This document shows positions 38,170 through 46,609 of a stretch of DNA of 64,000 nucleotides, piece by piece. Below the pieces are notes generated by a model. That model was not told the DNA's origin, did no database searches, and saw nothing but the letters and a program-made list of their open reading frames with translations. Within the stretch, counting starts at the first letter, position 1, and each line of letters begins with the position of its first letter. Made by a program: the position numbers and the translations under genes. Location: the NCBI GenBank assembly GCA_030427385.1, contig JAUHWR010000001.1, positions 930,001-994,000 of the forward strand, in the 5' to 3' direction. This stretch comes from Alphaproteobacteria bacterium (GTDB taxonomy: Bacteria > Pseudomonadota > Alphaproteobacteria > Micavibrionales > Micavibrionaceae).

Positions 38170-38244
<75 letters not shown>

Positions 38245-38260: not shown

Positions 38261-39250
38261 TTAACCATTTTTTACCTCATTATAGGGAGTGTTTGCAGGG
38301 TTCAATTGTAACAGGTCTGACGCTTTACGCAAGTAATCAGGTGAATATCTAGCATAAGTTCTTTCTGTAACCTTTGTGTCGGAATGCCCTAAATATTGAG
38401 CTATCTCACTCATGGGAATCCCACCCTCTGCCATCCAGATTGCCGCGCTATGGCGTAGAACGTGTGGCGTTATTTTCTTGGACAATCCAGAGCGCTCAAC
38501 GGTTCTATTGAACCCTGTACGAACATCTTTGACCTTATCGCTGTTATACTCAATCACATAATCACAAGTCCTTGCCAAATACGCCTCTTTTAAAGCCTGA
38601 TAAACCATGTCATTCAAAGGAACGGTTGCACGTCTTTTTATCCGGCTTCCTCTGCCAAGGCTTATAAATCGCCGCTCAAAGTCAACTTGATGCCACTCTA
38701 ATTCAAGAACGGCCGTTTTTCGTGCGCCTGTAGCTATTGCTAGCATTATAAATAATTTAATATGCGGCGCGGCGGCATTATCCAGTAACCTTGAAAATTC
38801 CTCACGTGTGATATTAATATCTTTAGGGTCTGGCGCGGGTGGTGTGAACCACGTCTTTGGAAAGGATTTATCAAAGCGTCTTAATGATGCTCTTATACAT
38901 CCTAATTCTCGAATAATAGTACCGTCTTTAATACCTTGTTTTCTGCGCTTGTTTGTGTAAGAAATAGCTTTTTCACGGTCAACTTGATCCGGTCTATAAT
39001 TCGCAAATTCTGGTTTAAGATTTTTCCACATATAACTTAGCTTTTCTTGTTCTGCCTTTGATTTTTCGGACTTATATAGTTCAAATATTTCTTCTAGTGT
39101 TTCATTCGGGGCGGCTTGAAGCTTTTTAAAGTCATCGAACCTTTGTTCTGCTAGGCGTTCATCAGCGGTACGTAACGAATATCGTTGCGTTGTTCCTTTG
39201 AACCTTCTGACAGCGGCAAATTTTCCCCTATAGAGTTTGAGCTTCCACAT
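38261..39250 (-). CDS. Tyrosine-type site-specific integrase
   Basis: A 329-residue tyrosine recombinase that inserts and excises the prophage at tRNA-Thr. Catalytic residues are visible: Arg in ATGARKTAVLELEWHQV, His-x-x-Arg in TPHVLRHSAAIWM, His in YLGHSDTKVT and Tyr in RTYARYSPDYL. A core-binding helical domain precedes. AAAGGAT before the ATG is the likely ribosome binding site. Its 5' end overlaps the excisionase-like gene by about 100 bp, and its 3' end adjoins the tRNA. Confidence 0.95.
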   Translation of the reverse strand: MWKLKLYRGKFAAVRRFKGTTQRYSLRTADERLAEQRFDDFKKLQAAPNETLEEIFELYKSEKSKAEQEKLSYMWKNLKPEFANYRPDQVDREKAISYTNKRRKQGIKDGTIIRELGCIRASLRRFDKSFPKTWFTPPAPDPKDINITREEFSRLLDNAAAPHIKLFIMLAIATGARKTAVLELEWHQVDFERRFISLGRGSRIKRRATVPLNDMVYQALKEAYLARTCDYVIEYNSDKVKDVRTGFNRTVERSGLSKKITPHVLRHSAAIWMAEGGIPMSEIAQYLGHSDTKVTERTYARYSPDYLRKASDLLQLNPANTPYNEVKNG

Positions 39251-45028: not shown

Positions 45029-45080
45029 ATATTCGCAAATAGAGAATTATAAGTCAATAGAAAAATAGCTATTAGCGAAC
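45029..45080 (-). promoter_or_regulatory. Leftward early promoter with two operator sites
   Basis: On the minus strand TTGACT (45052-45057) is followed by a 17-bp spacer and GAATAT (45029-45034). Between them lies the 17-bp dyad ATTCTCTATTTGCGAAT (45031-45047). A second, weaker copy, GTTCGCTAATAGCTATT, lies at 45064-45080 with centre about 33 bp upstream. The first site agrees with the operator at 46591-46607 at 14 of 17 positions, so the same repressor should bind here. Confidence 0.78.
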
Positions 45081-45097
45081 TTTATTTTCAGGACAAT

Positions 45098-45121
45098 AAA
45101 AAACCCCGCAGAAATGCAGGG
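45098..45121 (-). terminator. Terminator of the TylF-type gene
   Basis: On the minus strand CCCTGCA and TGCGGGG pair (with one G-U) around a 4-nt loop and are followed by TTTTTTA. It ends the methyltransferase transcript before the leftward early promoter, keeping the cargo gene transcriptionally separate. Confidence 0.82.
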
Positions 45122-45148
45122 CTTTTATGATAATTAAAATCGAAATTA

Positions 45149-45901
45149 TTATTTTATTAAAATGCCTTGTCCGGTAGGTACTGTGTAAATCATCTTTGAT
45201 TTACTTTGGGCAAATGCATTCCACATAGCATATTGATCCTCATGCCCTTTGTATGCGTAATCATCAATTACTATCATTGCCGAGGGAGTGATTTTATCCC
45301 ATATGGACTCAATAACATCTTTTTCATATTGCGCGTTATTTAAATCAATCGAGACGTATGCAATTTTTTTTATCTCTACATCTTCAAGAGATTTTGGCAG
45401 CATTCCTTTAACCATCTCAACATTTTCATACTTTGAAAAGGTCTCTTTTACAAGATGATAGCAATCAAAATACGTATGGTTGTTGTGATGTTCAGCTATT
45501 TTTATTTCTGAATTAGTCATATTTTTACTTATCGGAATACCTTCGTAAGTATCAAACAAATAGAACTTTTTATTTTCTTTCTCAAAGTTAAGGTACTTAC
45601 ATATCGTTGATGAAAGCAATGCCGTATGAACACCAAATTCTACAAAATCTCCCTCTAATGTTAGTCCATGCTTAGCGGCAAAGCATGCCAAATGAGCTTG
45701 CCATCTAAAATCAGGGACATTATTTTTCCAACCCTCTTTGTTTCTTGATAATGAATAATTCCAAGCATCAACAAAGTCTGCGTCTTGCATAAAGGAAATA
45801 TTTTTATTTCTAACTGCAAAGCCAGTCCCTTTGTAGGTTACATTTCTCAATGATTCTTTTACACCCAGAAACTTGGAAAGCTTTTTTATATATTTTTTCA
45901 T
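45149..45901 (-). CDS. TylF/macrocin O-methyltransferase-like protein, probable cargo gene
   Basis: 250 residues of the TylF-type class I SAM methyltransferase fold: LEGDFVEFGVHTALLSSTICKYL (SAM-binding motif I), KKFYLFDTYEGIPISK, EMVKGMLPKSLEDVEIKKIAYVSIDLNNAQYEKDVIESIWDKI and MIVIDDYAYKGHEDQY (metal-binding acids). Relatives methylate sugars, often in surface polysaccharides or antibiotics. It is more AT-rich than its neighbours, has a TATAAT upstream (45950-45955, complement) and its own terminator, so it looks like a gene expressed from the prophage. Confidence 0.82.
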   Translation of the reverse strand: MKKYIKKLSKFLGVKESLRNVTYKGTGFAVRNKNISFMQDADFVDAWNYSLSRNKEGWKNNVPDFRWQAHLACFAAKHGLTLEGDFVEFGVHTALLSSTICKYLNFEKENKKFYLFDTYEGIPISKNMTNSEIKIAEHHNNHTYFDCYHLVKETFSKYENVEMVKGMLPKSLEDVEIKKIAYVSIDLNNAQYEKDVIESIWDKITPSAMIVIDDYAYKGHEDQYAMWNAFAQSKSKMIYTVPTGQGILIK

Positions 45902-45949
45902 GTGGAAATCTCTTTAACTTTTAAATTATGTTCTTGCAATGTTCTACAC

Positions 45950-45955
45950 ATTATA
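45950..45955 (-). promoter_or_regulatory. Candidate -10 element of the TylF-type gene
   Basis: A perfect TATAAT on the minus strand in the sequence GTATAATGTG, about 50 bp before the gene start. No good -35 element is seen at 16-18 bp, so this is a weak prediction. Confidence 0.3.
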
Positions 45956-46081
45956 CTTAACTACAATATCACTTATTGTTAATAATTTGTTAATACGTTA
46001 TGGCGCAAAACTATTTTTATTACAAGAAATGTAGAAAGGGAAACAGAATGTTGCATAAGATTTGGTTGCGTTGTTATTTGT

Positions 46082-46546
46082 TTATTTTAAGGGCGGATTT
46101 TTATTTTTCCTCGAAGAAATTTGAGAAGAAATTGAATCTATTTTATGTGCTTTACTCGCAAGAGCATCCGCATCTTCTTCCAAAGATTTCGCCTCTTTTG
46201 ATAAATCGCGTATTGAACGCATCCTTTCCTTTACAATATCCCTTTCTCTTTCGGAAAGTGAAAAATATAGTTCCGCAAAATCTTCATCTCCAAGAACATC
46301 TATAGCAACATCTTCTTTAGAATGAAAAAGCTGCCAAGGTTTGAAATTATAGAACCTTGCAAAGCCATCCAAGTGATGAATATTGAGTGTTTTTTTACCG
46401 CCTAATAATTCAGATATATAGCCTGGCTGATGCCCTAACTCATCGGCTAACTGAACTTGATCGCCTCTTTTTAAGACAGAATTCATGCGCTCTCTGAACT
46501 TGCTGGCTATATCTTCTCTCATTGCGAAAGTATTAAATAAATACAT
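46082..46546 (-). CDS. Prophage repressor-like XRE helix-turn-helix protein
   Basis: 154 residues from the ATG at 46546, preferred over one at 46558 because GGAG lies 6 bases before it. The N-terminal HTH (VLKRGDQVQLADELGHQPGYISELLGGKKTLNIHHLDGFARFYNF) is a Cro/CI-type domain. The C-terminal half is charged helix (ERERDIVKERMRSIRDLSKEAKSLEEDADALA) with no LexA/S24 peptidase, so it is not the self-cleaving type. Divergent from the Cro-like gene across the operator region, it should be the maintenance repressor. Confidence 0.83.
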   Translation of the reverse strand: MYLFNTFAMREDIASKFRERMNSVLKRGDQVQLADELGHQPGYISELLGGKKTLNIHHLDGFARFYNFKPWQLFHSKEDVAIDVLGDEDFAELYFSLSERERDIVKERMRSIRDLSKEAKSLEEDADALASKAHKIDSISSQISSRKNKNPPLK

Positions 46547-46556
46547 CTTCTTCTCC

Positions 46557-46609
46557 ATATTCTGATAGAGAATATTTTGCTTGACGCTATGTTCTCTATG
46601 TGCGAACTT
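46557..46609 (+). promoter_or_regulatory. Rightward early promoter with two operator sites
   Basis: TTGACG (46581-46586), a 17-bp spacer and GAACTT (46604-46609, poor -10). Operator 1, GTTCTCTATGTGCGAAC (46591-46607), fills the spacer. Operator 2, ATATTCTGATAGAGAATAT (46557-46575), lies upstream with its centre about 33 bp away and overlaps the 5' end of the repressor transcript. The layout mirrors that of the leftward promoter. Confidence 0.75.

Follow-up and report, generated by a model that had tools for sequence, protein, structure and literature searches.

The closest described relatives of the locus analyzed here are the immunity switches of phage lambda and of N15 and phiKO2. In lambda, the repressor gene has a divergent early promoter on either side, each overlapped by 17-bp operators, accessory genes lie in the interval, and recombination genes occupy one early side and replication-type genes the other. 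Adjacent lambda operators are spaced at approximately 24 bp from centre to centre. In the immB region of N15 and phiKO2, the repressor and cro genes are divergent and five operators (OR1-OR3 and OL1-OL2) are distributed over OR and OL (PMC4997575); these operators share the motif T-A-(N)10-T-A, and OL lies upstream of repA. The cro and cI mRNAs of PY54 are both leaderless, that of cro by measurement (PMC4488713). Among alphaproteobacterial temperate phages, the best-studied C repressor is that of Rhizobium phage 16-3 (cited in PMC10460002). No operator map for a Micavibrio prophage turned up in our literature search, whose scope did not include the primary papers on phage 16-3.

The window (the whole 64,000-nucleotide stretch of DNA analyzed) is part of contig 1 of a 2.19-Mb genome, and a prophage fills its right half. 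This prophage very probably carries a lambda/N15-like lysis-lysogeny immunity switch, with predicted operators for the repressor P0001 at the early promoters PL and PR. As in lambda, a repressor gene lies between two divergent early promoters, each with candidate operators; a single operator family is found at both promoters, where it overlaps the core promoter; and a gene for a Cro-like second repressor comes first in PR. Of the five operators known from N15/phiKO2, OR1, OR2, OL1 and OL2 have supported counterparts here, including the two sites at OL, and an OR3 at 46513 is plausible. Unlike N15/phiKO2, neither the T-A-(N)10-T-A motif nor an OL upstream of repA was found: the operators here follow RTTCKC-N5-GMGAAY, and PL drives an early (recombination) operon with an Erf-type gene. 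The locus differs from lambda in having two (perhaps three) sites at a centre spacing of 33-34 bp, a short repressor without an S24 domain, and a Cro-like gene in PR that is apparently leaderless.

Prophage setting

The integrase gene (38261-39250, a PHROG integrase match) adjoins a tRNA-Thr(GGT) gene at 38170-38244, which is the probable attachment site of the prophage. The right end of the prophage is either beyond the window or unmarked. The leftward early operon encodes an Erf-like annealing protein and an SSB-like protein (the latter named by reading its translation, not by a family search), and the rightward operon encodes RusA. Terminase, portal and tail-type genes follow (structural names again read from translations, not from a family search). 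The first gene of the PL operon, P0004 (44682..45002, minus strand), is preceded by an ordinary leader with a GAGGAG ribosome-binding site; its product had no match in Pfam or PHROG. The host can be called Micavibrio-type because the contig named Micavibrio sp. RYN_474 is that of G049, another genome from this family.

Early promoters and operators

The PL core promoter (45029..45057, minus strand) consists of a -35 box TTGACT at 45057-45052 and a -10 box GAATAT at 45034-45029, separated by a 17-bp spacer; related prophages carry the same composite. The PR core promoter (46581..46609, plus strand) has a -35 box TTGACG at 46581-46586, a 17-bp spacer and a weak -10 box GAACTT at 46604-46609, and homologous PR promoters are present in L044, L045, L046 and L069. 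Both promoters had been proposed in an earlier note on this DNA, and every base and coordinate that it gave for them agrees with the sequence. Each -35 box matches the consensus at 5 of 6 positions. Measured against the E. coli consensus, the -10 boxes are poor (3/6 for PL and 2/6 for PR), which explains why a generic sigma-70 scan lists neither promoter. Compared with the alphaproteobacterial promoter CTTGAC-N17-CTATAT (PMC2873474), the PL -10 box matches at 4 of 6 positions.

OL1 (ATTCTCTATTTGCGAAT, 45031..45047, minus strand) lies in the spacer of PL and OR1 (GTTCTCTATGTGCGAAC, 46591..46607, plus strand) in that of PR; in both cases the last four bases of the operator are the first four of the -10 box. 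The predicted operators are imperfect 17-bp palindromes with the consensus given above. OL1 and OR1 are identical at 14 of 17 bases, as the earlier note had counted, and a 14/17 match to OL1 on one strand also arose in 7 of 30 shuffled 64-kb windows. This identity alone is thus not remarkable, and it is the position of the sites within the promoters that carries the argument. In the whole 2.19-Mb genome, TTCKCNATNTGMGAA occurs exactly only at OL1 and OR1.

Weaker sites were also said to lie about 33 bp upstream, and they are indeed present. OL2 (GTTCGCTAATAGCTATT, 45064..45080, minus strand) has its centre 33 bp upstream of that of OL1 and is the best upstream partner at PL (score 9/12). OR2 (ATATTCTGATAGAGAATAT, 46557..46575; score 8/12) has its centre 33-34 bp upstream of that of OR1: 34 bp if it is read as a 17-mer at 46557-46573 (ATTCTCTATCAGAATAT, minus strand) and 33 bp if it is read as the 19-bp palindrome at 46557-46575. 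It sits immediately upstream of the ribosome-binding site of P0001 and has a counterpart at the same offset in G049. OL2 and OR2 are individually weak; what supports them is the comparison of offsets among related phages described below. A further palindrome (CTTCTCTCATTGCGAAA, 46513..46529), not listed in the earlier note, lies within the 5' coding end of the repressor gene and scores 10/12 at offset 78; in G049 its counterpart scores 10/12 at offset 76. This site could represent an OR3 like that of N15/phiKO2, or a by-product of coding or protein homology.

Recurrence in related genomes and viruses

In 142 genomes of the order, the pattern TTGAC-N3..7-TTCTCTATNTGNGAA had four matches, namely the PL/PR pair of the window genome (G000) and the PL/PR pair of G049, and the reversed-pattern control had none. 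A looser pattern added the PL/PR pair of G097, from a third genus, and one stray match in G087 with no second site nearby, which we take to be a probable chance occurrence. Paired operators at both promoters were also identified in prophages of two more genera, in two IMG/VR viruses and in a Sinirhodobacter element. Of 17 pattern matches in genome contigs, most lack a second site and look like chance; L052 (the same locus as G049), L054, L059 and L064 were retained. L054, L059, L064 and L069 were chosen with a pattern containing only the -35 box and the strong operator (O1), so the partner sites in these elements constitute independent evidence. These observations strongly support the proposal that one operator family serves two divergent early promoters, since the layout recurs at both promoters elsewhere.

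The sequence of the operators is not constant among these elements. The operators at both promoters are TTCAC-N5-GTGAA in G097 and GTTTCC-N5-GGAAAC in G010. From phage to phage, the predicted operator sequence differs along with the local repressor, but the arrangement is retained. The viral sequence L043 (IMGVR_UViG_3300020417_000001, from IMG/VR) carries an immunity region nearly identical to the one in the G097 prophage, suggesting that this phage or a close relative has been sampled elsewhere. In L059 (4050-4100), from an alphaproteobacterium, and L064 (3467-3517), from an Acidobacteria contig, the same twin operators 34 bp apart were found near a lone HTH gene, which indicates that the layout also exists outside phage immunity regions.

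Spacing of the partner sites

Every 17-mer upstream of each strong operator was scored by half-site similarity. Summed over 16 promoters, the scores peak at offset 33/34 with a value of 145, while the next non-adjacent offset reaches 97 and the best offset in any of 1000 shuffles is at most 93. When the window's own genome and the two non-phage cases are excluded, offset 33/34 scores 106 against a shuffle maximum of 71; for the window's two promoters alone, the corresponding values are 17 and 16. At the PL promoters of seven elements, the partner site falls within the narrow range of 33-35 bp. When the gap between the upstream site (O2) and the -35 box was left free from 0 to 30 bp in the viral collection, two intergenic pairs were recovered, with spacings of 34 bp (L069) and 35 bp (L085). 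The remaining matches of this search, 25-bp and 36-bp pairs in L081, L083, L084 and L082, were inside coding sequence and were discarded as chance; those of L081, L083 and L084 are all in one repeated structural gene.

There are exceptions to this spacing, at PR of G097 (26 and 54 bp), PR of L054 (37 bp) and PL of L085 (35 bp), and at PR of G010 a site at 59 outscores that at 34-35. The PR pair of L085 was picked by eye and is given little weight: its 34-bp partner is only a half-site that was missed by the scoring, and including the pair lowers the statistic. The existence of an upstream partner at a fixed distance of three helical turns is strongly supported, as the offset exceeds the shuffles and is kept when the operator sequence differs.

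Repressor and Cro-like genes

P0001 (46082..46546, minus strand) is the predicted repressor gene. Its likely start is the ATG at 46546, which follows GGAG, while the start in the open reading frame list is 46558; no convincing promoter was located for the gene itself. The product combines an XRE-type HTH domain with a long C-terminal helix. Its family matches are weak (HTH_3, 0.007, under the Pfam cut-off; PHROG transcriptional regulator, 0.001), and a single-sequence search of IMG/VR and phage GenBank found no close relatives. Weak homologues with 18-32% identity are present at the same position in L006, L007 and L069, and the relatives at this position mostly have better HTH matches than P0001 does. 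The divergent orientation of repressor and Cro-like genes is shared by relatives. A repressor profile (A1) applied over the order detects XRE proteins too unspecifically to serve for counts (in 106 of 142 genomes), and both the A1 and the A3 alignment are shallow. An AlphaFold model of moderate confidence (mean pLDDT 72.6) predicts the HTH domain and a single long C-terminal helix (residues 103-153), and the matches in a fold search were HTH repressors and regulators, all with E-values of 0.001 or more.

No S24 (LexA-type) C-terminal domain was matched in P0001 or in the repressors of L006, L007, L005 and L069; this domain is typical of lambda CI but not of all such switches. Because P0001 lacks it, the protein is not expected to undergo the RecA-stimulated self-cleavage known from lambda. 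S24 domains are present in the repressors of L054 and L085, where the operator layout is similar, and the repressors of G049 and G097 are only approximately 118-119 residues in length. In phages with TTCTC or TTCAC operators, the recognition helices are of the GY-I/L-S/N-E/D-L type, while that of G010 is QKAKISKL. ClgR and SinR belong to an XRE class with a similar half-site (GTTCGC/GTTCTC) and a GY[IL]SE-type recognition helix: Streptomyces ClgR, which carries an SPGYLSELERG helix, binds GTTCGC-5N-GCG (PMC9775585) and SinR binds GTTCTYT (PMC3163267). The resemblance of these sites to the window operators suggests, from few sequences, that the operator class fits an HTH of the GY[IL]S/N-E/D-L type. 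ClgR and SinR are host regulators, and only their DNA recognition is comparable with this switch.

The first gene of PR, P0002 (46616..46816, plus strand), encodes a Cro-like HTH protein (HTH_31, 1.7e-6). It shows 36-38% identity (E-values: 3e-3 to 6e-3) to the annotated Cro proteins of phages SfII and mEp460, that of SfII being the 38% match (E-value: 6e-3). Despite this likeness, SfII and mEp460 were rejected as models of the switch, as their operators are different and their leader is ordinary. A single-sequence search of IMG/VR found no close relatives of P0002, and its best PDB match is ClgR (E-value: 0.003). The ATG of P0002 lies 8 bases after OR1. In G000, G049, G097, G010, L069 and L085, the Cro-like gene starts 8 or 9 bases after OR1 and 6 or 7 bases after the -10 box; in G097 and G010 the first ATG-like triplet falls within the promoter, and the gene start was taken from the alignment with relatives. 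Based on the distance from the -10 box, the transcript is predicted to be leaderless, probably in the window prophage and likewise in the five related phages.

The interval between the operators

The earlier note's view that the interval encloses a cargo methyltransferase holds: P0003 (45149..45901, minus strand) matches Pfam TylF at 7.7e-14. Between this gene and PL is a hairpin terminator (45098..45128) with T-tracts on both sides, a stability of -16.1 kcal/mol and a z-score of -4.6; none of 200 shuffles was equally stable. Every relative carries other genes in place of the methyltransferase, and it is thus not part of the switch. These include genes for XRE and GNAT proteins in G010 (L046) and, by reading, in L069, SocA/Panacea in L069, HicA with a DUF1902 partner in L085 and a probable membrane protein in G097. 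The interval is a cargo slot whose gene content differs from phage to phage across L044, L045, L046, L069 and L085. The span from OL1 to OR1 is 1.5 kb here, approximately 1.1 kb in G097, 1.7 kb in L054, 2.5 kb in G010, 3.2 kb in L085, 4.6 kb in G049 and 5.0 kb in L069. The layout is compatible with looping between OL and OR but does not demand it, and no fixed distance points to it.

Predicted operation of the switch

The sites, their positions, the conserved layout and the joint change of operator sequence and local repressor gene can be read directly from the DNA, whereas the identity of the binding protein, cooperativity, autoregulation and leaderless translation are predictions. Dimers of P0001 on OL1/OL2 and OR1/OR2 would shut the two divergent early promoters. 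As the strong operator occupies the spacer and runs into the -10 box, whose first bases it provides, a bound dimer would directly exclude RNA polymerase. Approximately three helical turns (33-34 bp) further upstream, with the -35 box between the dimers, the partner site would aid occupancy through cooperative dimer contacts. The position of OR2 against the 5' end of the repressor's own gene makes autoregulation possible, and P0002, made from the apparently leaderless PR transcript, would compete for these sites once the prophage is induced. Cooperativity between dimers three turns apart is plausible, and cooperative repression is the natural prediction given that the layout recurs and that its offset stands out from the shuffles.

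In an alternative arrangement, which we consider unlikely, the sites act independently: the dimer in the spacer alone shuts each promoter, and the upstream site serves only Cro or repressor autoregulation, with no cooperativity or looping. The free variation in OL-OR distance and cargo and the weakness of the upstream sites in the window prophage are consistent with this, as is the lambdoid 933W repressor, which is reported not to bind adjacent sites cooperatively (PMC3317979). However, an upstream site is also found at PL, where no repressor gene starts, and the 33-35 bp offset at the seven PL promoters would be difficult to account for if no spacing-dependent contact were involved. At the other extreme is full looping in the manner of lambda, in which dimers on OL1/OL2 and OR1/OR2 would bridge the 1.5-kb interval, making repression stronger and adjusting the synthesis of the repressor. 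All related phages examined have matching operator pairs on both sides of the repressor, the predicted 50-residue C-terminal helix of P0001 could multimerise, and long-range looping has a reported precedent in lambda (PMC3708714). The lack of a conserved OL-OR distance, the short repressors of G049 and G097 and the absence from P0001 of the S24 C-terminal domain of lambda-type repressors argue against it, and we regard such bridging as possible but rather doubtful.

It is very improbable that a host regulator (such as a LexA- or ClgR-like protein) uses these sites instead of a phage repressor. The half-site does resemble the ClgR motif, but the exact consensus occurs at no other place in the host genome and the operator sequence varies from phage to phage along with the local repressor. 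To our knowledge, GTTC-N9-GAAC is not the alphaproteobacterial LexA box, and a LexA box was rejected on orientation and spacing. Chance resemblance of AT-rich promoter DNA would account for the 14/17 match, given its frequency in shuffled windows, but not for the genome-unique consensus, the PL/PR-paired composite matches among 142 genomes, the offset statistic or the presence of this layout at homologous positions in further phages; we give this explanation almost no credence. Binding of P0001 to the paired operators at PL and PR is the reading that we prefer.

Significance

This is the first operator map that we have found for prophages of the predatory Micavibrio group, and it specifies exact sites that can be footprinted. 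The unusually wide, conserved operator pair predicted here is a variant of the lambda/N15-type immunity switch, and the spacing itself looks selected because it persists through changes in operator sequence, repressor type and cargo. Simple reporters could test whether cooperation between dimers extends over three turns, past the intervening -35 box, and whether bridging between OL and OR is needed. The same arrangement can also be used to locate immunity regions, with their cargo genes, in alphaproteobacterial prophages whose annotation is poor. More tentatively, these phages might represent an alphaproteobacterial temperate-phage lineage with a distinct regulatory grammar: three-turn operator pairs spanning the -35 box, leaderless cro, interchangeable short non-S24 and S24 repressors, and a swappable cargo slot bounded by bridged operators.
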